Below, piece by piece: positions 1-64,000 of a stretch of 64,000 bases of DNA (positions within the stretch are counted from its first letter, which is position 1; the number at the start of each line of letters is the position of its first letter). The notes under the pieces were generated by a model. That model saw nothing but the letters and a program-made list of their open reading frames with translations, was not told the DNA's origin and did no database searches. This DNA comes from Taxawa tesnikishii (nom. ined.) (Eukaryota; Ascomycota; Dothideomycetes; Dothideales): positions 992,001 to 1,056,000 of the forward strand of contig JAPDRO010000002.1 of NCBI GenBank assembly GCA_030247885.1, in the 5' to 3' direction. The position numbers and the translations under genes are program-made.

Positions 1-420
1 TGGTGGAGCAAGGCTTGTTCCCTGCCTCGCCTGAGCGAGCTGTTGTGCCCAGGCCCTGTTGTCAGCCTCCTCGGTGTCCGCATCATCGTTGTTCACGATT
101 ACCGGAGGAGCCGCAGCGACTGGTCCTGCGCTCTTTCCGCCCTTCCTCTTCTTGCTGGGCTCCGCTCTGCTAGCGACCGAGGTGCTGCTCGCAGCTGGAA
201 CATCGCTGCTGCTGACTTCAGACTTGCTGTCGACTTCGTTCTTGCGGCGTGATTTGGCCTCCTCCCGCCGGCGGGGAGCTTTGGTCTGCTGTGGCTGGAC
301 CTGGTTCGAGACTGATGCTCCGCGCGTTCTGTTGGAAGTTGGCTGTCCCTGGTTCGAATAGTAATAGTAGCCCGCTCCTGCGACAGTGAGCGCTGTCAAC
401 CAGGACATCCAAGGCTCCAT
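1..420 (-). CDS. 5' part of an unidentified membrane-anchored, Lys/Ser-rich protein (runs off the window)
   Basis: An open frame of 140 codons starts at ATG 420-418 and reads without a stop to base 1, so the 3' end lies outside the window. The N-terminus (MEPWMSWLTALTVAGAGYYY) looks like a short hydrophobic membrane anchor ending in a Tyr cluster. It is followed by a basic stretch (RRREEAK, SRRKNE, KKRKGGK), a Ser/Ala-rich linker and then an acidic piece (NNDDADTEEADNRAW). I do not recognise the family. An N-terminal anchor followed by a charged, low-complexity cytosolic region fits a small tail-exposed ER or mitochondrial outer membrane protein, but that is inference. Composition and lack of stops support coding; no homology was checked. 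Confidence 0.6.
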   Translation of the reverse strand, partial: MEPWMSWLTALTVAGAGYYYYSNQGQPTSNRTRGASVSNQVQPQQTKAPRRREEAKSRRKNEVDSKSEVSSSDVPAASSTSVASRAEPSKKRKGGKSAGPVAAAPPVIVNNDDADTEEADNRAWAQQLAQARQGTSLAPP

Positions 421-1547
421 GATGGTGATTTAGCTCGGGGACTGCCAAAGTCCGATGTGAGCGACGGTAGACTCTGGCGCGGGTTGTGCTGCCTACCTTG
501 ATGTAGAGAAGTCGAGGCAGTTGGCCGAAACACTACTGTTGAAAGCGTGCGTTGTTCTGTGCGGAGTGTATTGAGAGGTACAGCCGTGAGGATCTGAACA
601 GGGTGTTGTGCTTTGTAGGTTGAGCTTGAGGGCGAGGGACTACGAAGCAAGGAGGGCCAAGCTGGGCCAAGGTGTTGGCGAGCAAAAAGTTGGCGCCGAG
701 TTGTATTTGTGCAATTGTAGTTGTCGGACTGTGATAGGAGAAAGCAGATTGATGGTCAAAAGAGCGGTGGGGAGGGGAAGAAGCGTGTTTGTGTTGGTAG
801 TGACCGAGATGCCACGGTTGACGGTTGATGGTTGATGGTTGGTGGTGTGCACAAGTGCGTCAGGGGTGTGGCAGCTCAACGGAGGTCCCGTTCGGGCTGT
901 TGGTCCGCTGCCTCAACTATTGCCGAGACGTAACCTGTTCGGGGTTCCGTGTGCTGTGCTGACACGAACACTCACTGGCGGCGGCAACAATGGCACAGTA
1001 GGAACGCAGCCCGCGAACAGGCAGTGCGGCAGTCCTGCGAACTAAGGGTGAACTATGTGAAGCACAACCGCTTTCCCCAGCTGTCGTTCGACACAGTCTC
1101 CGAACATTGACTTTCACTGCCAAGCTACACCATGCCGCGAGAGGGCGCGCTAGACGTGCTGCATAACCTGGGGTGCACACGCGCTGCAATCTAATCCGAT
1201 TTACCTTGCGCAATCGGTAGGGTGTACATGCATGCAGCGATCGCACTCTTTTCCATCACACTATGCTATTCCGGAGACCCAAAACTTCGAACTGGGCCAC
1301 GAGGACCGTTGTCGCACGTTTTACACCTCGATGCAGACGCTGCATCTTGCACGGAGCATCTAGCTCTGGATGGTCAAGCCAAGTGGCTTGTTCACGACGG
1401 ATCGGCAAGCCATGCGTTGAAAAGCCTGACAGCTTGACAGCACCATATGAATTGCATACGCTACAAACGAAACCCGCTACTATCAAATCACACATGTCGC
1501 ATCGCTTCGGTTTCCCGTCATCTTCCATTCCCATCATGTCCAGTGCG
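421..1547. other. Intergenic: promoter of the first gene and 3' side of the dioxygenase gene
   Basis: Both neighbours are on the minus strand, so this 1.1 kb holds the upstream region of the 420 gene and the 3' end of the homogentisate dioxygenase gene. Only short overlapping ORFs without recognisable content are present. I see no RNA gene or repeat. Confidence 0.5.
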
Positions 1548-3117
1548 TTACCTGGCTCTGGTCTCCAATCTGGCCATTTGCTCCATCGGCGCCGTTCCTG
1601 ATGGTGCCCACCTTTTCTCCGGCCTCTTGAAGTGTGGCTTGAGAGGTTCCCAGCTCTCAGCGTTGTAGTCCTGTTGCACCTTCTTGCACTTCTTCAGTCC
1701 CCTGAAAAGACCAGTCAGCCTAGCCGCCGTACACATCCGAAGACCGTGACTTACCACTCAGTCACCCCGACCATGAGACAGCTCTCAAACATGAATGCCA
1801 TACTGCCCTCACCAACCTTCATCGGTTTGAGCTCCGCGTTTGATGCCTTCTCGTGCGTGGAGGCGTCCGGACCATGGGCGGACATGACATTATGCAGAGA
1901 GGCGCCAGCTGGTTGGAATCCTCCACCAGTCTTGGCGTCGTATTGGCCGTGGATGAGGCCCATGAACTCAGACATTGTGTTGCGGTGGTACCAGGGCGGA
2001 CGGAATGTGTCCTCTTGGACCAGCCATCTTCAATACGTTAGCTCCCGGTCTGTGCAGGAACTGAATGATATCGCTTACCTTGGCGGGAAAATGACAAAGT
2101 CTGCCACTGCGGTGCCAGGTGTGTCGCTCTGTGCGGTGAGGACCGTGTAGATGCTTGGGTCTGGGTGGTCGAAAGAGACAGAGCCAATTACGGAGTAGCG
2201 GGCTAGATCATACTTGTACGGATAATACAGTCCGTGCCAGGCGACGACGTCAAAGGGTGTGTGGTTCTGCTTAGCTGCAAAGAGATGTCCAGAGAACTTG
2301 GACAATAGCGTCCATTCGGAATCCGTATCCTCATCGAAGTACGCCACTGGAGCTTGGAAATCGCGTGCATTTGCCAGGCAGTTCGATCCAATCGGACCAA
2401 GCTCTGGAAGTTGGAAATGGCCTTGGTAGAGCTCAAGGATGTAACCGCGAACAGGACCTTCAGGCAGAGTGACACGATATCTGACACCGCGGGGATGACG
2501 CAGATCTCGTTTGGTCGTACAAGAATCTTGCCTAGCTCGGTCTGGATGTCTAGCACGCCGTGTTGTAGTACAATGAGGAAGTCACCATCAGCGCTATAGA
2601 AGGCTTCATGCGGGTCCATATCCTTGCCGGCGGCGAAGATGAAGATGCCAAGGCCAGTTTTCATAGTCGGGTCACCAGCGCCTGCAACAAGGTGCAGACT
2701 ATGCACCCAGTCCACAGTCTCGTCCAAGTCGAACGGATCCCATCGCAGCTGATTCGGAATCTGGTGCAGTTTCTCATGTGGCTTGTTCTCCGGGTTGGTG
2801 TTGTATGTAGATGACTCCCTTGGCTCGAAGTTGGAGTGTGCTGAGGCTGGAAGAATGCGGTACAGCCATGTCTGCTGATTCGTATGTCTCGGTGCGGTAA
2901 AGGCAGTGCCAGACAACTTCTCAGCGTACAGACCGTACGGTGGCTTCTGAGGGCTGTTGGCTGCTATTGGAAGAGCTCCCTCTATCGCTTCCGTTCTACA
3001 ACGATTAGCTGAACGGTTCTTGGAAGGCAACGATAGCTTGGTAACGTACTCATGGTAGCTGTTGAATCCATTCTGATATTGGTATTTTTCAGGGACCTTG
3101 AAATCTGTGGTAGGCAT
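1548..3117 (-). CDS. hmgA: Homogentisate 1,2-dioxygenase (one apparent frame break)
   Basis: Opens the ring of homogentisate to maleylacetoacetate in tyrosine and phenylacetate catabolism; a cytosolic iron enzyme. The start at 3117 (MPTTDF, then YQNGF-SYHE) matches the fungal family start. Introns: 2996-3049 (54 nt, reads through in frame), 2028-2078 and 1702-1754, all GT-AG. Iron-ligand motifs are visible: [12 protein letters not shown] (His and Glu) and [12 protein letters not shown] (His). At + strand 2491-2494 the gene has four Gs (four Cs in the gene) where [12 protein letters not shown] needs five; the frame shifts exactly there and is perfect on both sides. With one added base the protein is 470 aa, close to the family's roughly 445-450. 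It faces fumarylacetoacetase across a shared 658-nt region. Identity is secure; whether the gene is really broken is not. Confidence 0.95.
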
Positions 3118-3775
3118 CCTGCTCGTCTCCGTAGACTGGGTTGAGAAGTTCAGTGAGATACTTAGCAGTCAATGGTGTAGAGCTTGGAGGGAGCTGTGAA
3201 TCTGGCGGATCTCCAGACAATCCAAGGCGTTTTAATTCTGTTCTCCAGGTGGCAACGGATGGATTGTCAGGCCTGATGATGTTCGGATCCTGGATACCAA
3301 GTGTTGAAGTAGCTTTCAGCGCGGAAGGCGTGCGACGGATATTCATGGCGTGAGAAGCGTATCGGTTCCCGACTCTTCAGCAAGCACGAGCTTGAGCCGA
3401 GTCTCAGTTCCGCAGGCCGTACAACGGACCATTGCCTGGGAGGAGAGCAGCGGAGGGGTAACAACGGAAATCAGCGGGGTGCGGAGAAGCTGGGCTGCCA
3501 AGAACGGCAACGTCAGCGACGAAGTGAAGCTTCTTAATTGCGTGGGCGGAACATCTCCGCTTGTGGTTCCTCTCTCTTCCGTCCATCTCAGGTAAGGCGA
3601 GATTCTTTCACGACCGTAAGTGCATCTCAGTTCTCATAACCACCCTTGACTTTTGCTGGATCTGGTCTTAACCTCTCTTCACAATTACCAAGGCACTCTG
3701 TAGTGGAAATACCACCCTTCGAGTATTGCCATTTGTTTTCTTCAATCCGTATATCCTGTCCGTGCAGTTTCCGTA
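3118..3775. promoter_or_regulatory. Divergent promoter region of hmgA and fahA
   Basis: The 658 nt between the two start codons must hold both promoters, an arrangement that allows co-induction of two consecutive pathway steps. From memory, Aspergillus nidulans also has these two genes clustered. The minus-strand ORF 3346-3089, discussed as a finding, lies mostly inside it. I did not identify a specific operator. Confidence 0.6.
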
Positions 3776-5129
3776 ATGGCGCTCAAGAGCTGGTTATCAA
3801 TCCCTCCTCGCTCCCATTTCTCACTGGCCAACATACCTTTCGGCATCATCAGCACCTCTGCTGCTCCGAGTCCCCATCCAGCCGTTGCCATCGGCGACTA
3901 CGCCCTCGATCTTCATGTCTTCAGCGAGCAGAATGGGTTCTCTGCCCTATCAGTGATACAACCGCACCAATCTGTGTTCTCCAGCCCCACCCTCAACGCG
4001 TTCGCTGCTCTAGGGAAGCCAATCCATTCTGCGGTACGGAAGTACATCCAATCCGTGTTTCTCGACTCGACACCGTTCCCCAACGTGCTCAAGGAGAACA
4101 AGAGCTTGCAGAAAGAGGCGCTGATCCCGCTCAAAGACGTCAATTACCATGTCCCAATGCAGATTGGCGATTATACCGATTTCTTTGTCGGAATGAACCA
4201 CGCCTACAACTGCGGCGTGCTATTCCGCGGTCCAGCTAATGCCTTGCAGCCCAACTACAAATACTTGCCTGTAGGGTACCATGGCCGCGCCTCGAGCATT
4301 GTGGTTTCTGGAACACCAATCCGCCGACCAAACGGACAGATCATTACCAATCCGGCTGCCGACCCAAAGGTGCCAGTCTTCTCACCTACCCGGAAACTGG
4401 ACCTCGAACTGGAGCTTGGCGCGTTCCTGTGCAAACCAAACAAGATGGGTGAACCGGTACCGATCTCGGAGGCCGAGGAACATATCTTCGGTTTGGTACT
4501 CATGAATGATTGGTCTGCAAGAGACATTCAAAACTGGGAGTATGTGCCGCTAGGACCGTTCAACGCAAAGAACTTTGGTACCAGTATAAGCCCCTGGATC
4601 GTTTTGACCGAAGCATTGGAGCCCTTCCGCTCGAAGGGATTGGAGAATGACAAGGAAACTCTGCCGTATCTCAAAGAAAGGAGAGAAGAGAACGTGTATG
4701 ATATCAAGCTCGAGTGGGAGCTAAAGAGTACGAAAGCCGCCACGCCTTTATTGGCTCCCTGAACTAACATACAGTGCAGCACCTTCTGGAAACTCCAAAA
4801 CTATTGGGAAGACCAACGGTAAATACCTGCTCTTTTCCTTCCAGCAGATGTTGGCTCATCACTCCGTCGGCGGCTGTCCGATGAATGTGGGCGACATGTT
4901 CGGATCCGGCACAATATCTGGGACGGATGATGACTCCAAAGGTTGTTTTCTGGAATGGACGGAGAACGGGAAGAAGAGTGTAAAGCTAGATGGCGGCGAA
5001 GAGAGGACATTCATACTCGACGGTGACGAGGTCACACTGAGAGGGTGCTGTGGTGATGAAGACGGAGGACTTGTAGGGTTTGGCGAGTGTACTGGGAAGA
5101 TCGAGCCAGCTATAGGGATAAAGTTTTAG
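3776..5129 (+). CDS. fahA: Fumarylacetoacetase
   Basis: Last step of tyrosine/phenylacetate breakdown: hydrolyses fumarylacetoacetate to fumarate and acetoacetate. Exons 3776-4727 and 4780-5129; the 52-nt intron (4728-4779) has a CTAAC branch site and joins ELK to TPSGN in frame, giving 433 aa, the usual fungal length. Metal and active-site motifs are visible: DYTDFFVGMNHAYNCG (Asp and catalytic His), LDLELELG (two Glu), MNDWSARD (Asp) and MLAHHSVGGCPMN in exon 2. The N-terminal SH3-like part covers about the first 120 residues and the catalytic fold the rest. No frame break, unlike its partner hmgA. It is transcribed away from hmgA and toward the P450. Confidence 0.97.
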
Positions 5130-5764
5130 AGGCCGTGGTCAATACAGCCCACCCCCAGGGTTGCTGTGGAGTGTCTAGTTCCCGTATCGATGTGACGGTC
5201 AACGCATTTCTTGGGTACATAGACTTTGCAAGCAAACAAACAAACAACATGGAAGATTCCGCACGGCTCCATTCCGCACTTCCCCGCAAAGCTTCTCCAC
5301 AAGCCCTAGTTCGGACTTCCCGCGCTTGTCGTTTGTTCAACGATCTCACCTCAGATAGGAATAGTCATCACTGAGAAGGAGGGGCAGAAGAGGCTCCCTG
5401 TCGGTCAGCTGCAGCTTGCAGGCGCACACAACGTAACAAGAACCACTTGCGCGATTGGAAAGATACTGCTACCCCTTCTAGGCAGTTCTTGGTAAAGCGC
5501 ACATCCGTCCTTCCAGTGTACCACGCCGCATAGCTTCGGATTTGTGTCGGCATGCCGTAGGTCAAACTTTTCCGTTCACCCTTTGCCTGTAGGTCAGCAG
5601 TTCCGCATGCTTCTCTCTGAAGGAGACTTCTCGGCGAAGCATGCTGGTCTTCATGCTTCCTTCTCGATTGTCTAGGGTCCTTCTTCGCATCTCATCAGGC
5701 ATATAAGACATATCTTTACCTCAAAGGTCCCCTTCCGTAGCATCCTGCCACCAAGACACCAACA
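5130..5764. other. Intergenic, upstream of the P450
   Basis: This 635-nt stretch separates fahA from the P450 in the same orientation and must hold the P450 promoter. CT-rich tracts and a TATA-like atataag (about 5701) lie shortly before the ATG at 5765. No coding content seen. Confidence 0.5.
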
Positions 5765-7450
5765 ATGGAGCTCTCTCCGCTCACCGTGTTCGCGCTCCTC
5801 TCTGCAGCCTTCTTCATCATCCGTTACCTTAACAAGACAGACACTCCAAAGATCAAAGGCCTGCCAGAGATCCCTGGTGTTCCCATATTCGGCAACTTGC
5901 TCCAACTGGGAACTGAACACGCCAAAGTGACTCGAGAATGGGCCAAACAATATGGACCGGTGTTCCAGACACGGCTCGGGAACAGAGTAAGCGAGACGTA
6001 GCATCGCAGATATGCCAAAAGATCGCTACTGAGAACATGAATGTAGCGAATTGTGTTCGCCAACAGCTTCGACTCTGTCAGGCACCTTTGGATCACGAAC
6101 CAATCATCTCTCATTTCGCGCCCTACGCTGCACACTTTCCATACCGTTGTTTCATCCTCTGAAGGCTTCACCATCGGCACCTCACCATGGGACGAGTCCT
6201 GCAAAGCGCGTCGCAAAGCCGCGGCCACAGCCCTCAACCGACCCGCCGTGCAGTCCTACATGCCTTTCATTGACTTCGAGGCCACCCGCTCTATCAAAGA
6301 GATGTTGGTCAACTCCAAAGATGGCACCGTGGACCTCGACCCGAACCCGTACTTCCAACGGTACGCGCTATCCACATCCTTGACGCTAAACTATGGCCTC
6401 AAGATCGAAGGCAGCATCGATGATGAGATGTTGAAAGAGATTACGCACGTGGAGCGCGAGATCAGCAATTTCAGGAGCACGTCGAACAACTGGCAGGATT
6501 ACATTCCGTTGATGAGGCTGTGGCCGAGCAACAATACGAAGCCGCTCGAGTACAAGAAGAGGCGGGGTGCGTACATGCAGAAGCTGCTTGGGATGCTCAA
6601 GGAGCGGATCGCCAAGGGCACCGACAAGCCATGCATTACCGGCAACATCTTGAAAGATCCGGAGGCGAGATTGAATGATGGTGAGTGGTATAACGTGTGC
6701 TCTTTGATCCGCAATTGGACGCATTGACTGATGCCCTCCGTGCACAGCCGAGATCATGTCCATCTGCTTGACCATGGTGTCCGCAGGTTTGGATACTGTT
6801 CCCGGCAACCTAGTAATGTGTCTCGCATACTTATCCTCCCCCACGGACAGGAGATCCAAGCACGTGCACTTTCCGAGATCGACAAAGTCTACCCAAACAA
6901 AGACAGCTGGGAGAAGTGTCTGGTGGAGGAGAAAGTACCCTACATCACCGCTCTTGTCAAAGAAGTCCTGCGCTACTGGACCGTGATTCCCATTTGTCTT
7001 CCCCGCGTCAGCATCAAAGACATCGAGTGGCAGGGCGCTACGATTCCCGCCGGCACAACCTTCTACATGAACGCGTACGCTGCCGATTACGATGAGGGCC
7101 ACTTCGACTCGCCGTTCGAGTTTAACCCGGACCGCTATCTCGCCGACACCAGCAGCAGCGTGACGGGGACGCCGCACTACGGGTACGGCGCTGGTAGTCG
7201 TATGTGCGTGGGCAGCCATTTGGCAAACAGGGAGCTGTACACGGCGTTCTTGCGCATCATTACGGCGTTCGAAATTCTGCCACCGAGGCTGGACAGTGAT
7301 AAGCCGGTGCTGGATAGTTTGGATGCGAACGCGATACCGACGGGCTTGACCATGGAACCAAAGCCGTTCAAGGTGGGCATCAAGGTGAGGGATAGGGCGC
7401 TTTTGGACAGGTGGATCAAAGAGAGTGAGGAGAGGACGAAGGGCCTGTGA
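5765..7450 (+). CDS. CYP504-family cytochrome P450 (phenylacetate hydroxylase type; one apparent frame break)
   Basis: ER-anchored monooxygenase. CYP504 enzymes hydroxylate phenylacetate (PhacA) or 3-hydroxyphenylacetate (PhacB) toward homogentisate, which suits its place next to fahA and hmgA; I cannot choose between the two subfamilies. Exons 5765-5986, 6047-6680, 6748-7450; introns of 60 and 67 nt. An N-terminal hydrophobic anchor (FALLSAAFFII) is followed by GLPEIPGVPIFGN. Other marks are the I-helix region SAGLDTVPGN, the K-helix ExxR in KEVLRYW, FNPDRY, and heme loop YGAGSRMCVG, where the usual Phe is Tyr. At 6838-6842 five Cs stand where YLSSPHGQEIQ needs six; one added base gives 519 aa, normal for the family. 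The break lies between the I-helix and K-helix. Confidence 0.9.
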
Positions 7451-7678
7451 TGGTAGTATGATAAAACTGCGATACTGAGCTTAAGAAGCCGAGGTTTTCG
7501 GGTTGATGTACGATCAATTGACAGCAGATGACATCTGCGCTCGTATGATGAACGCACGTAATTCATGTGATGTAGCCTCTCTCGACAGCTGCCTCCAGCT
7601 AGCGACTAATGTCCAAGACCACGTCAAAATCTTGCCTGTAGAAGCATGCGATACCACATAGAATACCTCCACTCATAC

Positions 7679-9590
7679 TCAAGGTTGGCCAGACTTGGCT
7701 CCCTTCTCCAACACCACAACATCAGGTAAATCCGTGATCTGCACGGTCTCCTTTGTTTCCAAATCCACGACGCTGACGGCTGCAAGCCCCAGCGTGCCAG
7801 GCGACAATGCGAGGAACTCGAGCTGCGTACTGTGACACGCGCCAGGGAGCAGTGGCCTATGTCTCCGTATCAGCCGAGGCTATATGAGGCGGGAACAAAT
7901 GTAATATGCAACGAAGAAAGAAGAAGAAGAGTCAGCATGCAGCAAGAGGAGAACACTTACCCGACCCTGACATCAGCGTTCAAATTCACCGTCTCTGCGC
8001 TCCCACTGCTGCTGCCACTCTGCGCCGCCATCGCAGCATACACCGTACGCTCATCCAACACCGCTTCAGCAACCACCCCTTGGCCACTGCTTGCTCCCTC
8101 AGCTTTTACAGCAACTGTTGATGGTCTCGCTTTATGCCCTCCTCGCTGCTGCCTCGGAACAGCGACGAGCGCCAGCTTGCGTTTCCGCGCCCCGCGATTT
8201 ACAATGAAGACGGTGAGATGGAAGGTCTCTCCCTCAGTGACTGATTCGGGTCCCGTGACGGCGAAGGTCACGCCTGGGTCCGGCATTGCCATGCTGGAGG
8301 GCCGCGTGGGCGGACGCTGGATAGCCTCGGTTGTAGGCGAGACGAGGCCAGCTTGGCGTTGCCATGTACGAAGGGGTTTGAAGGAGGTCTGAACGAGAGG
8401 GACAATGCCGTGCCAGAGGATCGAGAGGGTGGCGGTGGTTTCGGGAGAAAGGGTTGCGGTGGCATTGATGGTGATGGTCAGGGGTTTTGGACGGTTGGCG
8501 TGCAGAGATTCGGTAGTGCGGCTTTTCTCGAGTTGTGAGAGCTTGTAGACGAAGGCGCTGCGGTCTCCGGCGTTCATTACCCGTGGTGACGTGGATGATG
8601 GGCTCGAGACGAGGGATTGGACGAGCAAGTCAGTTGCGCTCGCTTCGATGGATTGCAGCGCGATGTCGCAGTTGACGTAACGTGTTGCTTCAGTATCCAG
8701 AGAGGCCAGAACATAAGTTGATAGCTGAGTATAGTTGACCCGGAGAATCATCGCAGGCACTACAGGAAACATCTTTGACGAGCTTTTCAGTGGTTTAGTC
8801 TCTGCCAGGGTCAGCGTGGACCGGGGTGCCACTTTCTGTATCCGCGATACGGGCAGGCGAATCTCCCTTCCGATGTATGCTGGGCTAAGTTGTAAGGATT
8901 GAAGGAGGTCTTCCGGTGTTGGTGATGCGCTGGTTAGGTACTCATCATCAGGGTTGACTATTTTTGCAGCCTGCTCGACTTTGCGGAAATTGGCAGACGC
9001 CGTAAAGTGCACTACAGGCTTGTGGAGCCTCTGACCAGGATGTCTGACATGCAGTTGAACTTCCCATAATGCATATGTTGACAGAGGTTCGGTTTTTGCG
9101 AAGAGATCTGAAAAATGACAGGCTCTGTCCTCGTAGGCTGAGTATCGAGTACGTACTTTGCGGGCGCCTTGGGTGCGGAAGAAGGATTGGCCCCGGGGTT
9201 TGACGGAGGAGCGCTACTCGTGGCGTGTGCTGATATTAATATTTCAAGGTTCTTGAGGAGTGATTTGAGAATAGCTTCGGATACAGAGCTTCTGAGGAGT
9301 ACATGGACGCTCAAGAGCTCGTCTACACGCCTGAATATGAGTGAGACGTCGGCCACCCAAGCAGGAGAAGCAAGCTTACCAAACAGCAACACTTCTCGTC
9401 TTCTAAGCCGCTGTGATGTCTGGCCCGCATGGTCCTTGACGTAGGTCTCGAGATTGAGTTGAGTTGCTTGTGGCACAAGTAGTTCGAGCACCGAGTTTGT
9501 GGCGAAGGCTAGCCTCTGCTCGTCTATCTTCTCTACCGAGAGTGTAGACATCGGTTGGGTTACTACCGTTCTCTTAGCGCCTTGCAACAT
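7679..9590 (-). CDS. TRS65: TRAPPII complex subunit Trs65 (one apparent frame break)
   Basis: Trs65 is a fungal-specific subunit of the TRAPPII exchange factor acting in late Golgi traffic. Recognised by its C-terminal half: FVYKLSQLE, VTFAVTGPESVTEGETFHLTVFIVNRG, ARKRKLALVAVP, VLDERTVYA and, after a 104-nt intron (7857-7960), PLLPGACHSTQLEFLALSPG to a stop at 7679. Near the N-terminus a 57-nt in-frame intron (9323-9379) joins LLF to DELLSVHVLLR, as the family expects. The start may be 9590 or the second Met at 9551 (MSTLSVEKI); the latter gives 570 aa. At + strand 9111-9115 one base of an A-run (T in the gene) seems missing, since the frame moves from EPVIF to SDLFAKTEPLSTYALWEVQL. An intron could explain this step, but no splice pair I tried restores the frame. 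Confidence 0.8.
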
Positions 9591-10090: not shown

Positions 10091-12498
10091 ATGAACGGAA
10101 CAACACCAGCGTGGCAGACGTACAACAACGCAGACGAGCAGAGACCTTACTACTACAACGTCGCGACCAAAGAGACCACTTGGGTAAAGCCTGATGATCT
10201 TCTCACTCCTCCTCAGCGCGCGTCGGGCTGGTCCGAAACCACGGTAAAAGGTGGAAGGGTGTACTGGTTCCGCAAGGACGATAGGAACAAGACAACTTGG
10301 GACGCTCCGCCAGAGTGGAAGCTGCCGACAGGACCTGCCGTGCCAGATGATGCTCCGTACGTGAAGAAATGAGTTTCATTGCACGATCGTAATAGCTGAC
10401 TGGCCTCACAGTCAATTCGTTACCTCCAACTTTCCAAGCTTCGACGCCTCGCGCGACACACGCGACGCACGCGATCAGCGCTCCGAGAGACCACGCGACG
10501 ACCGCAGACACCATGACAGATCCAACTACGACCGCCAAAACGAAGGCTATCGTGGCCAGCTTGCCCCACTCTCAACCGGACCCGAGTTCGCATCCGAGGC
10601 TGATGCCGAGGCGGCCTTCCACAAACTTCTTAGAAGGGCGGGTGTGCAGCCTGATTGGACATGGGAGCAGACCATGCGTGCAACAATCACGGATCCAAAC
10701 TTCAGAGCACTCAAAGACCCATACGAGCGCAAGCAAAGCTTCGAAAAGTTCATCGAGAACATCAAGATCGAAGAGAGGGAGCGCGAGAAAGACCGTGTCA
10801 CCAAGTTGCGCCAGGACTTCAGAGCAATGTTAGTGAGCCATCCGGAGATCAAGCACTTCAGCCGCTGGAAGACGGCACGCCCTATGCTGGAGGGGAAGCC
10901 GTGTTCCGCGCCAGCAAGGACGAGGAGGAAAAGAAGCGCATGTTCTACGAATACGTTGGCGAGCTCAAGAAAGCCCATGACCTCGAAGAGCGTGAAAACC
11001 ACAGAATTGCGATGGAAGGCCTTACTAAGATCGTCAAAGAAATGAATGTTGCGCCTGAGACGCAATGGAACAATGCGCAGGATGCCATTTACGCCAAAAT
11101 TGATGAGATCGACGACGACAGATGGGCTGCTTTGACGAGGTCGGACATCCTCACCGCGTTCCAAAAGCAAATCCATGCCATGGAGCGCGATCTGAATGAC
11201 ATCAGGCAGCGCGAGAAACAACTGGAGCATAGGCGTAGGCGCAAGGCCAGGGAGGGGTTTCTCGCTCTGCTTCAGGAACTGAAAGACGACGAGCGTCTCA
11301 AGCCTGGAACCATGTGGAAGGAGATCTTCCCCATGATCGAAGACGACCCTCGCTTCATAGCATTGATCGAGAACGGAAGTGAAAAGCTAGAAGAAGGTTC
11401 GGGGCCTCTGGACTTCTACTGGGATGTCGTGGAAGAGTTTGACCGCGAAACATCTGATCTGCGCCATGTGGTGGAGGATGTCCTCCATGTAGGTGAACGA
11501 GATGCCATTTCAGAGAATGTCAGCTGACCATCATACAGGATCAACAGTTCAAGTTGCGCCCGCAGCACAGCTTCAGCGACGTTTACCGTGTCTTGCAAGA
11601 TGACAAGCGCACCGCTTCTGTCAACCGTAGCCTCCTGGAAGCCGTCTTCAAGCGCTTGCATCAAAAGGAGCTGGAACGCCAAGAGGACGCTGAACGTGAT
11701 GCTCGACGCAACCAAAGACGCGCAATCGACGACCTCCGTCATATCATCAAGCACCTGAAACCTTCTGTCCAGCTTGGTGATACATGGGACGACGTCCGCT
11801 CTCGCGTAGAACGCACCGAAGAGTACAAGCTTGTGCAGAGCGATGAAGATCGACGTGCCGCATTCGAAAAGCACATGCGCCGGCTCGAGGACGACGCAGA
11901 GCGCGAACGTGCCAGACGCGACGACCGCCGCCGCGATCGCGACCGCGATCGTCGCTCTCACACCCGCGACATCGACCCCTACGAAGCTGATCGTCGAAAG
12001 CACACCGCAGAGCGTGAGCGCCAGTACCGTCAATCCAGCTACAGCGGTCTGTCGCCTCCACCTCGTGAGCGCAGACCACCGCGTGACGACCCGTACGACA
12101 GGGACAGGCGAGAGTCGATCTATGACCGCGAGCGCAGAGAACGTGAGGCCGAACGGGAACGCCAGTACATCAGCCGTGCGGACCCGCGCGCCAAGCCAAG
12201 CGAGCTCGACTACGGCGACAGCAGCGACGGACCCAGCAGGCCCGAGAGCAGCCTCGGAAAGAGAGATGGGAGTGAGCGTGGTGGTTCTGACGTACGCAGG
12301 GTCAAGGTAAGTTCCTTCACCGCTCGACATAGCATTCGCACGGCTAACATGCAACAACAGCGTCCTCGCATTGAGGACCCTCGCAGCGGTAGGTCCATGA
12401 CTCCAGCCACGGGCGGAGCCTTCGGATCTGACGGAGCACAAGATGATGCACCAGCGCTGCAGTCAGGCAGTGAGGAAGGCGAGATCGAGGAAGTCTAG
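10091..12498 (+). CDS. PRP40: U1 snRNP splicing factor Prp40 (one apparent frame break)
   Basis: Prp40 bridges U1 snRNP at the 5' splice site with branch-point factors. Two WW domains sit at residues 5-40 (WQTYNNADEQRPYYYN, TTWVKP) and 46-85 (GWSETTVKGGRVYWFR, TTWDAPPEW). A basic linker and several FF domains follow, starting at AAFHKLLRRAGVQPDWTW. The C-terminus is an Arg/Asp/Glu-rich tail ending GSEEGEIEEV. Exons 10091-10356, 10412-11488, 11539-12306, 12361-12498; the last intron (54 nt, GCTAACA branch) reads through in frame. At 10892-10895 four Gs stand where ARPMLEGEAVFRASK needs five. With one base added the protein is 749 aa and the splice phases agree. It is convergent with RLI1. Confidence 0.93.
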
Positions 12499-39483: not shown

Positions 39484-39502
39484 CAGCAGCAGCAGCAGCA
39501 GC
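39484..39502. repeat. (CAG)6 microsatellite
   Basis: Six perfect CAG units in non-coding sequence. Confidence 0.95.
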
Positions 39503-44914: not shown

Positions 44915-46305
44915 TCAACGTGCTGCGTTGCGTGCCGATCTTCTGGTCCCTTTACTTTGGCCGTTTGTTGCCTTTGCAGCTGGCGCTGCTGCTGTTTTAG
45001 TCTTCTTTCGTGTAGGCTTCGGGGCTTCCTCCTCCGCTGACTCTTCGTCGGGTGTGAGAGACGCCTCATCATCATCTTTCTCCTCACTCTCCTCCTTCTT
45101 GGTCTTGCCTCGTCCCTTCCTCGCCTTCTTAGCTGGTTTCTTCTCTTCTTCCTGTTTCTTATCTTCTTCCTGTTTCTTAATGACCTTCGCTCTTCGGCCT
45201 TTCAATTTGGGCTCTTCTTTGACTACATCATCTTCATCCTCATCGTTGGCCGCTCTCTTCTGGCCGCGTCCTCTCTTCGCAGGCTTCTTCTCCTCTGCGT
45301 CTTCCGACCCTCCCTCATCGCCGCCGACATCACCAGCCACAGCGCCCGTCTTCTTCTGTACGCTCGGTACGATTGCAGAAGTCCGCCCGCCAACCTTCAG
45401 ATGCACAATCTTTCCCCGTTGGGTAGCACATTGGCGTCTTTCTTCCCCTTGTCCCATCGATATTTCATAAGCCAGTTCTCTGGAAATCGGCTCGAGTCTG
45501 CAAGCGTCTCACATGCAGTCGTCGTAACAGAGATAAGTGCGTCATGCAGCTGCTTCATCTGCTCGTCGCTGAACGTGTTGCTGTATTGTTCCGGGTGTAT
45601 TCTCGCCTGATACAGGACCTCATCCGCGACCCAATTTCCCACTCCGCTGATGTTCGCCTGATCCAGCAGCAGCGCCTTGACCGGGACTCTCTTACTTCGC
45701 ATCTTCTTGCTCAACCACTCCACCGTCAGAATATCCTTGTCCACTACTGGATCAGGTCCGTTCTCCTTTAACGGAGTGGTCTTTCTCATCGCGTCCGCTT
45801 CCGCATCGATGAGCCGTATCCTGGCTAAGCGCCTCGCGTCTACGAAGGCAACCTCGCATTTCCCATCTTCACCGCTCTTGTCCTCCATCTCGAGCACGAA
45901 CTTCCAGAACCGCGGCGGCCACTCACTCTCCTCCTCTTTCTTCGGTCTGTAGTACGCCGTATCATCGTTAGAGAACTTCATCCAGCCCGTCATACCCAGA
46001 TGCATGAGCGGATGCGGCGCAGAATCCATCACTAGCCAGAAATATTTGCCCTGTTGCCGTGCGTCGAGGATCGTTTTGCCCGTCATGGCGCTCTTGAAGG
46101 CCGATGCGCTGCACCCGACTTTGCCGTAAACGATGTCATCTTCCTGAACGCGCACAGAGCTGATGCGCCGGTTGGTCAGGTGTTTGCGCAGGTAGTGCAC
46201 TATGCGTGCTACTTCGCCAATCTGAAACTCTTGATCAGTCTGGCGTTCTTACGCGGCATGCCAGTGCAATCACTGAGTGGATTACTAGACACTTACCTCA
46301 GGCAT
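44915..46305 (-). CDS. Fpg/MutM-type DNA glycosylase-AP lyase, plant/fungal zincless class (one apparent frame break)
   Basis: Nuclear base-excision repair enzyme removing oxidised bases. Exon 1 is only 9 nt (46297-46305) and encodes Met-Pro-Glu, i.e. the catalytic Pro2 and Glu3. A 75-nt intron (46222-46296) leads to IGEVARIVHYLRKHL. Further marks: HLGMTGWMKF, the helix-two-turn-helix part LLLDQANISGVGNWVADEVLYQARIHPE, and a C-terminal hairpin without zinc cysteines (HLKVGGRTSAIVPSVQKKTG). At + strand 45411-45413 three Ts (As in the gene) stand where LPNGEKIVHLKV needs four; one base restores the frame. The protein is then 438 aa with a 150-residue Lys/Glu-rich tail (KKPAKKARKGRG), a likely nuclear-targeting and DNA-binding extension known from fungal members. 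Confidence 0.92.
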
Positions 46306-54979: not shown

Positions 54980-55692
54980 ATGGAGATGCTAACTCTCACT
55001 CCCATGGTGTCAGGACCAGTCCTGTCACAGCCCAGCCACGATGACCATCTCAAACACGGAAAACCCGCGCGCCTTTTCGGTCACTTCTTCGAGGACCCAT
55101 ATCATTATCTGCCATTCCATCATGGCGAGCATATCATTCATCCCAAGTTCGATTTCCGCGAGTCGGATGAGGCATACTTCCTTGAAGGTATGTTAACATG
55201 GCCAAGCAGAGGACGTCTAGTTCAAAGGTGCTCATGCGAGTGAAGGCGAATTTCCTGGCATCGCGAAGAAAGAGGATATCCAGCTCGAATGGGCCGGCGA
55301 GCGCACCCTCGTAGTCAATGCAACCGTGGAAAAGGTCGACCTCGAAAAGAATGGGGTCTTGGTTTGCCCAAGAATGAGACCGAAGATGAAGCTAGCTCAT
55401 CGGATCCGAAGGGCACCGAGAATGCGTTCAAGCGGCAGCCCACTGATGAGATGGTCGATCCCGCCCTCGCCCAGAACCACAAATCGAAGAAACACGACCC
55501 CCAACACACCATTGGGCGTCGGAAAGGCGTACCGGACATATCCGTCGCTCGTTCATCTTCCCTGAGAACGTCCGGCATGAGAGATTGGTCGCACGTCTTA
55601 ACCAGGGTTTACTTAAGATCTTGATTCCAAAGGCCGAACCCACAGAGCTGAAGAGAAAGAAGATTGAGATCGATGTTTTGAATTTCTACTAA
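54980..55692 (+). CDS. Small heat shock protein, Hsp20/alpha-crystallin family (two apparent frame breaks)
   Basis: ATP-independent holdase chaperone. Exons 54980-55187 and 55246-55692; the 58-nt intron joins AYFLEG to EFPGIAKKEDIQLEW, an exact family match. Alpha-crystallin strands: HPKFDFRESDEAYFLEG, GERTLVVNATVEKVDL, and after an insertion the end strands RRSFIFPENVRHERLVARLNQGLLKILIPK with the Gly-Leu-Leu core. The 45-residue insertion (ETEDEASSSDPK to KKHDPQHT) is acidic then basic, as in many fungal Hsp20 proteins. One base is missing at 55353-55356 (G4) and one at 55523-55525 (A3). With both added the protein is 218 aa ending VLNFY. The heat-shock-element array upstream agrees with the call. 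Confidence 0.88.
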
Positions 55693-58600
55693 GCCTTACT
55701 GGTTCGTTCAAGTCGTTGCTGATGCTTTTGGTTGTGGAGAACATGTCTACATGACGTGTATAGTAAGCCCAGTCGTTACCTACCCTATCGTAACTGTATA
55801 CAGTTGTCTGTCTACTTCCATGTCCTGCCAGGATACGTACCTCGTCTGTTCCAACTGCTGGATGAGCCACTGAACTTACGTTATAACTACCTAGTCTATC
55901 TCTCACAGACTCACTACACTTGGGACTTACTGTATCAACTTGGGAAGTGTTCAAGGCTGCGACATGGACTCATCAGGCTCGATACTAGACTATACTGAGG
56001 AGCTTGTTGCGCAGCATAGTTCATAGAACCGTCTGGGTGGCTTGGGCACTGTCGTGACCAACGGAGTTGTAGAATTGAGAAGATGGCAATTTGACGCACG
56101 CGAACGTGCTAACGTGTTTCTTTGTGGAAATACTGGCTAAAGGACCCCTCAAGACCGTTTACACAGCGGATACGACGCACACCTGTTCATAAAGAACAGT
56201 GATCCCACAGACAGTTGGACTGCGTGACGTATCGCTTTTGCAAGGCAGCGGAAGCGCCAGCAGATCTGTGGGTGCGTGTCATACGTAGACATCGGAGGCG
56301 TGATGCTTGTCCCCAGGATTTTGAGGCGGCTATGTAGGTAGCAGGAGCCCAGTGTCTAAGCGTCCTGGCGCCTGCGTTGTTATCGCCTTGACTCAGGCAA
56401 ATGGACTGCTTTTTGATGGGACTGATGTCGAAGGCAATGAGGAGGAAGACTGTTGTGACACCAAACCTCAAGAGGACAAGCCGATCTTGCAGTTCAAGCG
56501 GGTTTCGTCCTCAAGCCATCTCGTGGTGGAAGCTCGGTTCGGTCGCGTCGATCAACTCAGCAGCTTCTGTTTATTGCAGAGAATACGAACATCGGCGGAT
56601 GGGACACATTCTAGCGTTCGCGGATTCATATGACAGGTGATGTGCGCTCCTCCACCACGTGCGTCACCTTCGTCCTACCTTTGCGAGTAGGGCGTTGCTT
56701 CGAACGTCTTTGAAGACTCCGTGACGACCATGGGAGAACGATCAGCAGGTCGTATCATCCGAATGTTCGGAATTGAGAACTAGGTCGTAGCTGTTGATGC
56801 CATCATCGTTCACGTGTCATATGCTCGAGAAGTATGCGTTATTGACGGATCGTTCGTGTGACTTCTGATCTCCCCGTTCCCATGTGGTCAATGCGGCGGT
56901 AGAAATGTCTCCGAAGGCCAGTAGACTGGATGACTTGCCACCCGTGTCTATGTCTCACACCCAACCAGATGTGGGTCACGTCTTATGGAACTCAGGCAGT
57001 ATGTGAGCCAACTAGTCAGGGAAGACGACGATGAGCGTTATAGGTGTAGCGGCAACTGTCTCGCGTATTGGCGTGGTAGGGTATCCCCATACAGGGGTTT
57101 AGCCCAGCACAGACAGACAAGACAGAACAACTGTGTCGAAGGTCATCATTCGAACCGTGTGTCAGGGACAGAGTCAGGGTTCTTCGCTGATTCATTCTGA
57201 TTGGACGGAGAAGCTGCCGACGGTGAATGTATGATATGTGAGATTGTGGAAATGCTTGGAAAATGACATTCTTGAGGATGGCACCCAGCACACCTTGCAG
57301 CTCTGAACTTCAACTCCATGATCCGTACCCAGAGGCTCTTGTTGTGAGTTCCCCGATGCCGAGTAGACCAACCATGTGATGACACTGCTACCACATGGAT
57401 TTTCCTTCATGAGGGATGTACTCCTCCAAAGTCGCCATCTCGCTTATAACTTCTTTATAGAACTGTTGGAACCTCCGCCCCGCAATCATGGGCGCGCCGT
57501 TTAGGTTTAGCGCGGCTCTGCTGTCCCGCGTCGTCGCCAATTCTGGAACCCAAAAACAACGTCTTCCTGTGCTTCCACCGCCACACTGTCTTCCCGTGTA
57601 CAACTCAATGCCGTTCCCTGTCTGGACCATACAACAGCAAAACATACATGTGTACTCAATGTAGCGTATCGGCCACTATCGAGACGTTGATTCGAAAGAC
57701 AGGACCGACCCTGTTTGAAGCCGTTTTTCTGGGGTACACGACCGTTGCACCGTTGCCAACAAGTCTATGCTCATGTTTACGACTGGTCCCTGACGGGGTT
57801 TAAGCTGATTTGGGACACCCAATTATTGATTCGAGGTTTCCCGTTCACTGTCACTGCCCCAGAACTGGCTATCGAACCGTTGTCTCCAAGATGCTTAGAC
57901 GAGCCCTGTACTGTTCTGCTGTTGCTTCAGGGCTGCTGGTTGCTTTATGAAACGAGAGCTAAGAGGACGCAATACGGGCTGGTATCGTCGTCAACTTCAC
58001 AGAGACACCAGCGGAAACAACAAAATCCGATAGTATACGGTCATCTCGAGATTTGCAACTGCGCTCACTAGGAAGTATCGATCCACTGTGGCTGGCTTGG
58101 AACCGGATGGAACAACCGCTCTGTTGTCATTGGCTCGACTGTCTGTTTCTGGACCTCAATCTGATTCCCTAATCTGTGCGACAAGCCGTTGGCTCTAAGG
58201 GTATGCTTAACTTGTGGGGTCCAAACAACCAAATAGCTGGGGTAGTTGTGCGTCAATGGCGGTGGCGGGCTGTTGCTGCAGATCCTTGAACGGTTATGGT
58301 TGACTTGTTCTAATCTTTCTTCCTCGCAGAGAACCACATGGGGGCTGGCCACACTATTGTCTCCAGCCGCATACTCTCCTACGACATGTCTGCTTCGAGT
58401 AAGTGATCGTCATTGAACGTACCTCTCTCACTGAAACAGGCGGTGCTTCAGTCATACTTGCCCGTTTGATCAGCAATATAGTACACTCTAGCACAGTGAA
58501 GCAGCATCTGCCATCGATCAGAGCACTCGTTCAAGCAAGTATCCAGTATGTCAGACAGGGTATAATAATCAGGTCCTGCAGCAGCATTTGCAGTCCACCA

Positions 58601-58705
58601 TCGGAACACTACTAACCTACAGCGACAACACCCCTCGTCCTCTTCCTTCTTCCTCTTCTCCCTTCTTCTTCGGGCATCCGCACCCGAAGCTTCTCTTTGA
58701 CCGAT
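55693..58705. other. 3-kb stretch without a recognisable gene
   Basis: Between two plus-strand genes. I read both strands for protein motifs, repeats and tRNA features and found none. ORFs such as 57715-58071 (+) and 57645-57388 (-) lack family features. The last few hundred bases must hold the promoter of the large repetitive gene; the rest is unexplained. Confidence 0.5.
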
Positions 58706-61700
58706 ATGGTCAGCCTGAAGTCCATCACTTGGCTTTCCTTTGCCGCTGCAGCTGCCGCTGCTCCTGCAAGGCGCCAGCCTCACGAAGAAGCCCAGGAAAT
58801 CGAGCGCCGCAACATTGGGGGTTCCTCAATACCTTGCTTGGTAATGAAAACAATGCAGTTTCCAGTGTCGTCAACGTGAACGCCCTCGCTGGCGTTGTGG
58901 GAGGCGTCACTGGTGTCGTCGGCAGCGTGGTCGCTCCTGTGGCCACCATTGCCTCGAGCGCTGTCGGCGAGGTCGTTGCTCCGCTCAGCAGCGTCGTGGG
59001 CTCTGCCGTGGCTCCTATCACGAGCGTTGTCGCACCTGTGGCCACTGTGGTTGAGCAGCAAGGCGGCATCCTCTCCACTGCCGTGTCTCAATTTCTGGAT
59101 CCTACTTGGGTCGCCGAGTTGGTGTAAGTCAAAAGAGTGCAAGCATGTCTGCGAGTGTTGACTACTGACACTTCCAAAGCCCATCCAACATTGCGACGCT
59201 ACCAACGGGACTGGACATTCTTCCTACTATCCTGAACGGCGCCAGTGATTTGGACACACCGGCTACCAGCTTGAGCAGCGCCAATGGCGAACCATCCTCC
59301 GGAGCAATCCCAGGACTTGACTTGACTTCTGCAGTTGGCAACCTAGCTTCAGAGATCCTCTTCCAGTCGATGCTACACCAGCAGCGGCCTTGTCATCCGC
59401 GATTGGCAATCTCGCTTCTGCCATTGCGTCTCCTCTTGCGGCTACAGCTACACCAGCAGCGGCTTTGTCTTCGATCGTCGGTGATTTGGCTTCGGCCGTC
59501 ACATCTGTCGCGTCTCCTCTCGCCGCTTCGTCTGCCGCCGCTAACGCGGTGTCATCCGCTGTGGGTGGTATTGCACCCGTGCCAGCAGCCGCTGGTTCTT
59601 CAGTTCTCGGGGCCGTTTCCTCCGCTCTTGCGGGAGCCATCACTCAAACTCCTGCTGCCGCCACAACCGCCGCCGCCTCTAGTCCTGCTTTTGCTGTCCC
59701 CAGACTTCTCATCCCGCTGGGTGGTATTGTCTCTCAGGTGATCCAACCTGTGGCCGGTGTCGCCAGTGCAGTGGTGGCACCAGTCAACTCAGTCGCTGCT
59801 GGTGTGGTAGCTTCGGTGGATGCCGGGCTCGATGACATCGTGACCGCATCCGCTGCCGTTTCCGCTCTGGGGTCTGGCCTCGCTGGCGTCGCTGCCTCGG
59901 TCACCGTTCCCCTACTCGGGGATATCGTGCACGCCTCTGTTACGGTCGATGGTCTCCCATTGGTCTCCGCCACCATTGCAATCAACACCGATGCGACCTC
60001 TGATGTCCAGGCAGTTACATCTTCTATGGCTGCTTCTGGAACTGCTGCGCCTGCAAACCTCAACTTGCTCGGTGGGCTTACCTCCGTTGTTGGAGGCGTG
60101 GTTCAACCCGTAGCGACTATCGTCAGCGGTGTGGTTGACCCAGTCGGCTCCATCGTTAGTGGTGTCGCACAGCCCATTGCTACGATCGCTAGCGGAGTAG
60201 TGGACCCCGTTGGCTCTGTTATCGGCGTTGCTCTACAACCCTCAGTGACTGCCGCTTCGGCCGGTGACCTGTTGGACCCAGTCAACTCCATTGTCAGCGA
60301 CGTGCTGCAACCCTCGGCCAACATTGCCAGTGAAGTATTGGACCCAGTGAACGGACTTGTTGTCTCTGCCACTGTTGGCCTTGGCGATGTTCTGCCTTTG
60401 AGCGCCACAGCTGTCGTTTCCGCCCTCGGTTCGAACCTTGCTGACATCGGAGCATCCGTTACCCTGCCGATCCTGCCTGTTTCGGCTTCTATCGCTCTCT
60501 CAGGCCTCCCTCTCGTCTCTGCTACTGTAGCAATCAATGAAGGTGCTGGCTCGGCTGCTTCCGCTGCGCAGCCCACTGCTAGTGCTATCGGATCTTCTGC
60601 TAGCGGCTTGCTTGGATCTGTCGTGTCTGATATCACCTCTGCTGTCGGTGGCCTGGCGACTGCGAACCCCTCTGGCGCCACTGGTCAACCTAACTCCAAC
60701 GTTGCATCTGGCACTATTCCTTCCGGTGACCTTGCTTCAGCGGTCAACAGCATCATCCCATCCGCTGTAACCGACATCACCTCAGCCCTGGGTGGAGTAA
60801 TCACTGCTGTTCCGGCACCCGGTACTGCCTCGTCTGTCAGCCTGCGCCTCCCTGTACCGGTGGTATCTGCAGTTCCTTCTGTCGTTTCCGATCTTACCTC
60901 TGCCCTTGGCGGTGTGGCTACATCATTCCCCTCTGGACAAGATGCTTCCGGCTCACCGACTGGCTCCGGCGCTCTACCCGCTGGAGGCCTCGTGTCGTCC
61001 ATAAACAGCGCTATCTCCTCGGCAGTGCCATCTGTCGTCTCTGATCTCACGTCGGTTCTCGGTGGGGTCCCTACTGTCCTCCCTTCTGGACAAAGTGCTT
61101 CTAATCCAAACAGTGCTTCTGGTCCAGCTCCATCTGGAGGTCTTATCTCGGCCGTCAACAGCGTTGTGTCTTCTGCGCTGCCACCTGCTGTCTCTGACGT
61201 AACCTCGCTGCTTGGTGGTGTTACCACCGCAGTCCCTTCCGGACAGGCTGCTTCCGGAGCAAATACCGCTTCAAGCCTTGCACCAGCTGGCGGTATTGTA
61301 TCGGCCGTCAACAGCATCGCCACCTCGGCCATTCCCTCAGCTGTCTCTGCAATTACATCGGCTCTTGGCGGTGTAGCTACAGCTCTCCCGGCGTCTGGCA
61401 CGCTCGCTTCGGTCAGCTTGCGCCTCTCTGTCCCTGTGGACTCTGCCGTACCTTCCATCGTCTCCGAGGTGACTTCAGCTCTTGGTGGCCAGAACACTGA
61501 ACTTCCATCTGGTAACGTCGCTTCGGCTGTGAACAGCATCGTCTCCTCTGCAGTTCCGTCGGTCGTTTCAGAGGTTACTTCGGCACTCGGCGGTGTAGTT
61601 ACTGCTGCTCCAGCACCTGTCACGGCCACACCAGTAAGCCTGCGCCTGCCTGTGCCCGTAGTTAACACCCAGGCTGCATCAGCTGTCAACAGTATTGTTT

Positions 61701-63558
61701 CGTCTGTGGTTCCAGCAGCTGTATCGGACATTACATCCGCTCTCGGTGGCTTGGGAACTGCGATACCATCTGGCCAAGCTGGTCAAGCCGCTTCGGAATC
61801 CAGTCGAACAGCTGGCTCTTCCGTCGCCGCAAGTGTTCCGGCTGTCGCTGGCTCTGGTTTGCCCTCGTCCGTTGCTGGCCTCGCATCATCTGTCCTTGGT
61901 GGCATTCTCCCAACTGACTCTGCTGCGACTATCGACCCAGCCGCTGCCACACGATCCGCTACACCTCTTCTCTCCCTATCCCTAAGCGTGGGACTCCCAG
62001 CTGTATCTAGCTCACCAACGGTACCCAGCTCTTCAGTCATCATCGGAGCTCCGGTCGCTATCACCCCAACTGCCGAAGCCGCTTCTTCTGCTGCGAGTGC
62101 CGACCCAAGCAACGTCGTTTCTGTTGTGCTCCCTGACTCGTCGTCTACCGGCCAGGCTGCCGCAACTGGCATTGTTCCAGGAGCCTCTAGCCTGCTGAGC
62201 AGTGTCCTCGGCGGTATCCTGCCAGGCGCTACCAGCAGTGTATCTGCCATTCCATCTGCACAGTCTACACGTGCAGCTGCTACCAACGACCCTGCCATCA
62301 GCCTCTCCCTGGGCGTGCCTGTCCTCTCCAGCATCCTTCCTACTGTCAGCCTTTCCCTTGGCCTCCCAGTCTCCGCAGCCCTGCCAACCACAAGTCTTAC
62401 GAACGGCGCTGGCCTGACTTCAGTGTCGAACCCCGCAGGATCTGGCGTAGCAGGAGCTCCCTCATCAGTCAGCCCATCAGCAGCCTCCGCTTCTCCACTC
62501 CTGTCGATTAGCTTAAGGCTGCCTGTGCCCGTTGTCAGCCGCTCTGGCGCTGCTTCTGCTCCCGCTGCTACCGATGCTACCTCTTCTGCCGTTGCTGCTG
62601 GTTCGGCCTCCTCTACTGCAGGTAGCCCACTCGGTGGCATCCTCTCCGGCGTTTCCAGTGTCGTCAGCAACATTCTGCCTAACCCTACCGTGGTAGGTTC
62701 TGCGGCCAGCGACAACGCCGCACTGTCCTCTGCTGCCGGACTCTCAGCCAGTGGTATTTCGGGCGGTGTTTCGAGCGTTGTCAGCAATGTCCTGGCTAAC
62801 CCTACCGTTGCGGTCTCTTCCGTCACTCCCAATGCCGCATCCCCTTCAGCTGGTGGTCTCCTCGGCGGTATCTCCAGTGCTGTCAGCAACATCCTGGCCA
62901 ACCCTACTCGCGTTCCTTCCTCCGTCATTGCTGCTGGTACTTCCTCTGCAGTTGTGCAGGACCCGTCGGCTTCTTCGATCGCAGGCAATCTGCTCGGCGG
63001 CGCTCTTGGTGGTGTCTCCAGCGCCGTCGGGAACGTCCTGGTGAACCCTACGGGAGCTGTTACTTCTGCATCTGCATCTGCATCTGGTCAGCCGTTGCTG
63101 AGCGTTAGCTTGCGCTTGCCAATTCCTGTGGTCGCTGCCAGCGCTAACGCTGCTTCCGCTTCTGCTGCCACCCCTGCTGCCTCATCCAACCCGGCAACTG
63201 CATCTTCCTCCCCGCTGTCGCTGGTGGCGCTTCTGCTGTCCTATCTGTCGCTGGACCTTCTTCTTTCGCTACCGTTCGTGTTTCTTCATCAGCCGCCGCA
63301 CCCGCCTCCTCTTCCGCCGCTGGCGCATCCTCTTCGGAGCCATCCACGACCGCCATGGAAACTTCGGCCGCCACCGGTACCGCAGTACCAGCTTTCGAAG
63401 GCCCCTCCGTCTCTTTCTGTGGAGCCACGCTCGTGTGTGGAGCTACCAACCAGCCTGCCACGGTCACTGTGACCGCGACCAGCACCCTCAAGATTTACCT
63501 GCCCGTCACGGCAGCACCCACCGTCTCGGTGTTTGCGGCCAATGTGCTCAAGGCGTAA
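58706..63558 (+). CDS. Giant Ala/Ser/Val-rich repetitive secreted protein (three apparent frame breaks)
   Basis: Exons 58706-59123 and 59180-63558; one 56-nt intron. Start 58706 gives signal peptide MVSLKSITWLSFAAAAAAAPA, then dibasic pairs ARRQPHEEAQEIERRN that Kex2 could cut. The body has several repeat families: VAPVATI/VVDPVGSIVSGV units (58900-60240); a duplicated module ending GLPLVSATIAIN and GLPLVSATVAIN (59860-60540); about eight units like SAVNSIVSSAVPSVVS plus TSALGGV (60720-61790); LLGGISSAVSNILANPT units (62620-63060); and a strand-like SLRLPVPVV motif in five places. The only Cys I see are the two in SFCGATLVCG near the end. No GPI tail. Bases seem missing at 58817-58821 (G5), 59357-59358 (CC) and 63210-63213 (C4); with three added the protein is 1599 aa. 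Family unknown; a wall or surface structural protein is my inference. Confidence 0.8.
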
Positions 63559-63823
63559 ACGTTTCCTTTGTTAGCATTGTATGAGTAGGGGCAGGATGTT
63601 GATCATCTAGGTTGCTTTGCGTTTGCATCACAGGGTTAATACATGGGATCATTACCTAATCTTGTTCTCCTTTGTCAACTACTAACGATCGCTAATACCG
63701 AATACCCGACTACTGTCAATCATTATAGTAGATAATTCTAATGTCAAATGACCAACTTACTACTACGAGCGAAGTGTAGAGCAATGTTCACAAACCATGT
63801 TTCCTGTAATTCGTAATGACGCT
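63559..63823. other. Short intergenic between convergent genes
   Basis: 265 nt of AT-richer 3' flanks with no coding content. Confidence 0.5.
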
Positions 63824-64000
63824 TCATCTGCCAAATGCCATCGGGCAGCCCATCCTCCCCATAGCCGCCAGTCGCTTCTTGTCCGCTTCGAGCTCCGCTT
63901 TGCCTTTGCCAGACAGAAAGGCTGGGCCGACCTCATGCGGCAACCAGCCTTGTGGCCGGAAGAAATCGCCTCGATCTCCAGGTATGGGCTTGCCGCTTAG
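63824..64000 (-). CDS. 3' end of an unidentified gene (runs off the window)
   Basis: On the minus strand the window edge opens directly into an ORF of 58 codons ending at TGA 63826-63824. It reads LSGKPIPGDRGDFFRPQGW, LPHEVGPAFLSGKGKAELE, ADKKRLAAMGRMGCPMAFGR. The composition and lack of stops look coding; a Lys/Glu helix precedes the Gly/Met end. I do not recognise the family, and the plus-strand ORF over it is a shadow. An intron could lie inside, which I cannot exclude. Confidence 0.5.
   Translation of the reverse strand, partial: LSGKPIPGDRGDFFRPQGWLPHEVGPAFLSGKGKAELEADKKRLAAMGRMGCPMAFGR

Follow-up and report, generated by a model that had tools for sequence, protein, structure and literature searches.

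Nanopore sequencing mostly reads runs of identical bases correctly up to a length of four to five, is worse for C and G, and produces deletions that rise with run length, as set out in a section of PMC8486125. In fungal assemblies built from nanopore reads alone, reading frames are lost in such runs, and the relevant section of PMC7500977 describes this for Drechmeria coniospora, where the frames of conserved fungal genes were broken by insertions and deletions (indels) located mostly in runs, those of at least four bases being counted. Run indels also shift frames after nanopore polishing in the systems of the Homopolish paper, a portion of which (PMC8011154) records one isolate in which polishing with Racon and Medaka left 7,891 deletions and 1,114 insertions. 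Whether gains or losses prevail varies by genome and polisher within the sections of PMC7500977 and PMC8011154 considered here. We find what appears to be the same condition in the ascomycete Taxawa tesnikishii (nom. ined.; GenBank assembly GCA_030247885.1), in 64,000 nucleotides of contig JAPDRO010000002.1 (positions 992,001 to 1,056,000 of the forward strand, hereafter the window), where genes had been predicted to lack a single base at each of 19 runs. The genes and introns of the window would fit a filamentous fungus. In the cited portion of the Homopolish paper the errors were measured against references, whereas here they are deduced solely from the reading frames and the run spectra.

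The frame breaks are almost certainly consensus errors of a long-read assembly, in which runs have been read one base short. The pattern itself is real, and the artefact is an ordinary one that extends across the assembly. The basecaller or the consensus step would shorten runs of at least four identical bases by one, G/C runs above all, and each such loss inside an exon would shift the reading frame. We infer that the sequencing is the cause, and the platform would have been nanopore of the R9 kind.

How general are these breaks in the assembly? We analysed the window together with 28 loci on eight of the 34 contigs, picked by round coordinates regardless of content, in total 344 kb or 1.2% of the 29.37 Mb assembly. 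A blind, 3-periodic frame-tracking model was applied, with the same cost for gained and lost bases and with a main penalty of -10 and a laxest penalty of -8. At -10 it called 57 losses against 11 gains (two-sided sign test, 1.3e-8), divided as 12 and 2 in the window and 45 and 9 in the 28 loci. The loss calls amount to 12 in 37,979 coding bases of the window (0.32 per kb) and 45 in 131,961 elsewhere (0.34 per kb). These rates agree, so that the window is typical and the breaks are not special to it. The detector has near-symmetric power, recovering 67 of the losses and 64 of the gains when 80 of each were introduced into synthetic genes, with 3 + 3 false calls in 265 kb. As a control, 50 kb of E. 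coli K-12 with a self-trained model at -10 gave 13 losses and 3 gains, all no more than 90 bases from annotated gene ends and none deeper inside genes; we attribute these to operon genes that overlap or lie close together, an arrangement for which the model makes no provision. False calls in the fungal genome are at least partly due to missed introns. The pattern exceeds chance, and the one-sidedness claimed in the original prediction, of bases lost and not gained, is borne out by the near-symmetric detector. Taking (57-11) breaks in 170 kb of coding sequence, and correcting for a power of 84%, gives about 0.3 breaks per kb coding. Extrapolated from 1.2% of the assembly, this would correspond to several thousand breaks genome-wide, provided that coding DNA makes up 49% throughout.

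The losses are associated with runs. We spread the position of each call over its likelihood and then fitted the loss rate by run length. In a two-class fit, runs of at least four bases lose a base at 20x the average rate, with a log-likelihood difference (dlnL) of 25.0, and outside the window alone the corresponding values are 19x and 17.7. The relative rate is 0.85 at length 1, 15 at length 4 and 46 at length 5. The 11 gain calls display no run association (dlnL 0.27), and eight null simulations with random losses gave a dlnL of at most 0.43.

The spectrum of run lengths is independent of genes, and has its own discontinuity. In the 344 kb there are 1106, 187 and 6 C/G runs of length 4, 5 and 6, respectively, and in non-coding DNA 630, 128 and 6. 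For C/G runs of at least six bases about 38 are expected, against 8 observed at length 6-8 (P 4e-9). The fall in A/T runs from length 5 to length 6 is from 250 to 38. Thus losses dominate, longer runs are favoured, the effect is spread over coding and non-coding DNA, and G/C runs are worse, with a drop above length five. Under-calling of runs accounts for the preponderance of losses, for their dependence on run length, for the C/G bias and for the spread, as well as for the cut-off above five.

A further view of the breaks is given by profile junctions in protein families across the genome. The genome family search scored best candidates only, and the junctions were compared by eye in rows with a near neighbour (72 of 106 for P450, 22 of 24 for CCT/HSP60, 15 of 20 for HSP70 and 6 of 10 for Ion_trans). 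Clear breaks leaving no room for an intron comprise seven base-short and two base-extra among 36 P450 junctions, one base-short among 14 CCT/HSP60 junctions and one base-short among eight in HSP70; two junctions were ambiguous, one in HSP70 and the other in the channel gene of the window (36681-36684). Overall, 9 of the 11 breaks located by profile are base-short, including those in a CCT gene (C1:528261-528264, contig and position) and an HSP70 gene (C3:494622-494625). Eight of the nine base-short junctions were inspected (all but C33:1211), and all eight have a run of 4-5 bases inside the junction or no more than 8 bases away, three of these junctions being 19 to 79 bases wide. The base-extra P450 junctions are G000:C29:23912-23935 and G000:C1:1975548-1975586, of which one has a run of five C and the other has no run longer than three.

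Within the window, inspection of the letters shows that all 19 intervals are pure and maximal single-base runs of length 2-5, as had been claimed. That every loss lies in a run is near-automatic for lengths of two and three; the fit shows no excess at these lengths and lends such short runs no support as such. At the laxest penalty the blind model has a loss call near 13 of the 19 sites (no more than 105 bases away, and for 11 of them no more than 30); it is silent at five (6838, 29021, 31483, 55353 and 55523) and gives the opposite sign at one (23321). At -10 nine of the sites are called, and the 95% interval holds the run in seven. Breaks of the base-short kind are indeed present. Their placement is softer than the original prediction implied: one site (55523-55525) is misplaced, two (10892 and 32355) lie outside their blind intervals, and the choice of run is approximate in GLE1 and wherever the run has only two or three bases. 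Assignment by Pfam gives one site each in genes for homogentisate dioxygenase, a P450, a Trs65-like TRAPP subunit, an FF-domain PRP40-like protein, GLE1, Fapy-DNA glycosylase and a kinase, two each for a branched-chain aminotransferase (also by phmmer) and an HSP20 protein, and five for a four-domain ion channel; three more fall in a Ser/Ala-rich protein, named by eye. Profile boundaries fix several breaks closely, among them those in the homogentisate dioxygenase and aminotransferase genes. The other sites were judged by eye from translations in all three frames, in part against known motifs, and the support at the three Ser/Ala-rich sites comes from the blind model.

In the homogentisate 1,2-dioxygenase gene (2491-2494, minus strand) the HgmA_N profile runs over 8-177 in one frame and 177-273 in the next, and a blind loss is called at 2490 under all penalties tried. 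This gene adjoins a fumarylacetoacetase-like gene, identified by eye, on the opposite strand (window 2078-5126), and the two form a tyrosine-degradation pair. At the cytochrome P450 break (6838-6842, plus strand) the p450 profile 287-460 lies in the downstream frame. By eye, what we take to be the I-helix motif is in a different frame just upstream, after an intron. The Trs65-like gene (9111-9115, minus) has IgD3_Trs65 in the downstream frame and a blind loss at 9084 (interval 9015-9118). In the PRP40-like gene (10892-10895, plus) FF domains are found in both frames, the break was read by eye with the help of a known motif, and the blind loss is at 10822 (interval 10801-10876).

Two breaks on the minus strand lie in the branched-chain aminotransferase gene, one at 23321-23322, directly after an intron, and a C-terminal one at 22747-22750 with a blind loss at 22757 (-8 only). 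Compared by phmmer with solved branched-chain aminotransferases, the match extends from 23321 to 22743-22745; both breaks therefore lie at, or a few bases from, these runs. The blind call of opposite sign at 23321 arises because there is an intron with a TAG acceptor just upstream that the model does not use, and when the DNA is read by eye the frame after this intron shifts in the base-short direction. The break at 24790-24793 (plus) is in a kinase gene, presumably SCY1-like, read by eye, with Pkinase in the downstream frame and a blind loss at 24792 (-8 only). In GLE1 (29021-29022, minus) the profile is in the downstream frame and the reading is by eye, the placement in this run being approximate.

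The ion channel gene, which we take to be CCH1-like and thus a calcium channel, contains five breaks, all on the plus strand. The N-terminal one (31483-31487) was read by eye. The second, listed at 32355-32357, was also read by eye and is placed approximately within 32228-32357; a blind loss is called at 32252 under all penalties tried (95% interval 32228-32322). At 33889-33893 Ion_trans is in the new frame from about 33891 (blind loss 33880, -8 only), and at 35068-35072 from about 35084 (blind loss 35045, -8 only). At 36681-36684 Ion_trans 11-196 and 201-240 are in two frames, and the blind model places a loss at 36693 (interval 36669-36697). An extra base-short blind call close to the C-terminal end of the gene (window 37997-38071) is absent from the original list. 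A genome search for a second copy with 2,297 bases of the channel gene returned only the copy in the window.

In the formamidopyrimidine-DNA glycosylase gene (45411-45413, minus) Fapy_DNA_glyco and H2TH lie upstream of the break, and the blind loss is at 45429 (interval 45401-45435). The HSP20 gene has one break in a variable linker (55353-55356, plus), read by eye. Its second break had been placed at 55523-55525, which is too far downstream: by about 55489 the HSP20 profile (40-89) has already moved to the downstream frame, which would put the break upstream of 55523, somewhere in 55357-55518 (plus; frames by eye), with the caveat that profile ends can over-extend. The Ser/Ala-rich gene has breaks at 58817-58821 (blind loss 58818, all penalties tried), 59357-59358 (blind loss 59364, with a longest run of two in the 95% interval) and 63210-63213 (blind loss 63182, interval 63173-63219), all on the plus strand. 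This region (window 58492-63555) encodes a very long, repetitive Ser/Ala/Val-rich protein, and the opposite strand has open frames of 365 and 434 amino acids that are probably a by-product of codon bias.

Seven genes in the window had been considered clean. In CHD1, RLI1, GH17 and RRP1 the frame changes coincide with introns when read by eye, and in FAH and the first bHLH gene the blind model makes no call at -8. RLI1 (13453) and the second bHLH gene (52384) keep one blind call each, at -8 only. Beyond the listed sites, the calls at -8 in the window are six losses (13453, 17017, 38023, 41949, 44998 and 52384) and three gains (13240, 22633 and 47612); on reading, those at 17017 (CHD1) and 41949 (GH17) are missed introns.

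A number of observations weigh against under-calling. The runs at 10892 and 32355 fall outside the blind 95% intervals. The fit is non-monotonic, with a rate of zero at lengths 2, 3 and at least 6, and 27.8 of the 57 events fall to no run; the latter are either false calls, in part missed introns such as 17017 and 41949, or losses outside runs. The A/T deficit is weak, with 56 runs of length 6-8 against 67 expected (P 0.10). Four C/G runs of 11-19 bases stand apart from the rest of the spectrum, at L012:5058 (19 bases), L024:1946 (13), L026:6862 (13) and L027:6365 (11), while C/G runs of 8-10 bases are absent from the 344 kb; the four could be genuine microsatellites or else a product of polishing. 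C/G runs in the 50 kb of E. coli are too scarce for it to display a normal spectrum. The CCT and HSP70 genes have two clear breaks in about 22 kb by a rough estimate, which is below 0.3 per kb, and this deficit in the chaperone families relative to the model rate is only partly explained. Finally, in the section of PMC7500977 on D. coniospora polishing left more insertions than deletions, whereas losses dominate here, and one genome in the cited portion of PMC8011154 has 704 insertions against 324 deletions.

Could the strain really have lost genes by small deletions, for example after loss of mismatch repair? Deletions in runs are a signature of replication slippage, and the two base-extra P450 junctions elsewhere are also in keeping with decay. 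Yet the rate is equal in the window and in the 28 loci on eight contigs, and the C/G runs are cut off above five in non-coding DNA, while runs of 4-5 bases are short for slippage. Nor are the breaks confined to dispensable genes, since the PRP40-like, GLE1, CCT and HSP70 genes are affected. Yeast cannot live without its CCT subunits or its cytosolic HSP70, nor without genes like PRP40 and GLE1, and with essential chaperone genes affected real loss at such a rate is hard to credit. We therefore regard decay as very unlikely.

Programmed -1 ribosomal frameshifting in many genes, or RNA editing that adds a base, is extremely unlikely. The direction of the frame change is the same as that of -1 frameshifting, and at one of the 16 testable sites among the 19 (32355) two in-phase heptamers, CCCTTTA and TTTAAAA, lie a short way upstream. 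But the other 15 testable sites lack an in-phase X XXY YYZ slippery heptamer, for which the chance is about 1.5% per site, and the feature common to the sites is run length and not a motif. Moreover housekeeping genes are affected, some several times, and the C/G cliff in non-coding DNA is unrelated to translation.

It is equally improbable that the breaks result from chance or over-reading, with unrelated frames stitched together and a nearby run chosen each time. The five uncalled sites, the one of other sign, the one misplaced and the two outside their blind intervals speak for such a process, but the blind calls elsewhere repeat both the one-sidedness and the run association, and profile boundaries meet at the sites in HgmA_N and the aminotransferase. 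That the channel site listed at 32355 is a real programmed -1 frameshift among sequencing errors has an almost negligible probability, lowered because the blind interval of 32228-32322 lies upstream of the two heptamers, which are in -1 phase at 32343-32352.

Under-calling of runs, the reading given in the original prediction in preference to decay or programmed shifting, is thus supported by the one-sidedness, the runs of 4-5 bases, the C/G cliff and the essential genes affected. Symmetric frame-tracking, a run-length fit and the run-length spectrum together suffice to flag such assemblies, and neither reads nor relatives are needed. For T. tesnikishii, until accurate reads have been used to correct this assembly, a considerable fraction of its genes will be misrepresented in gene models, in counts of pseudogenes and in protein searches, and apparent gene loss, split genes or recoding in this genome deserve distrust.

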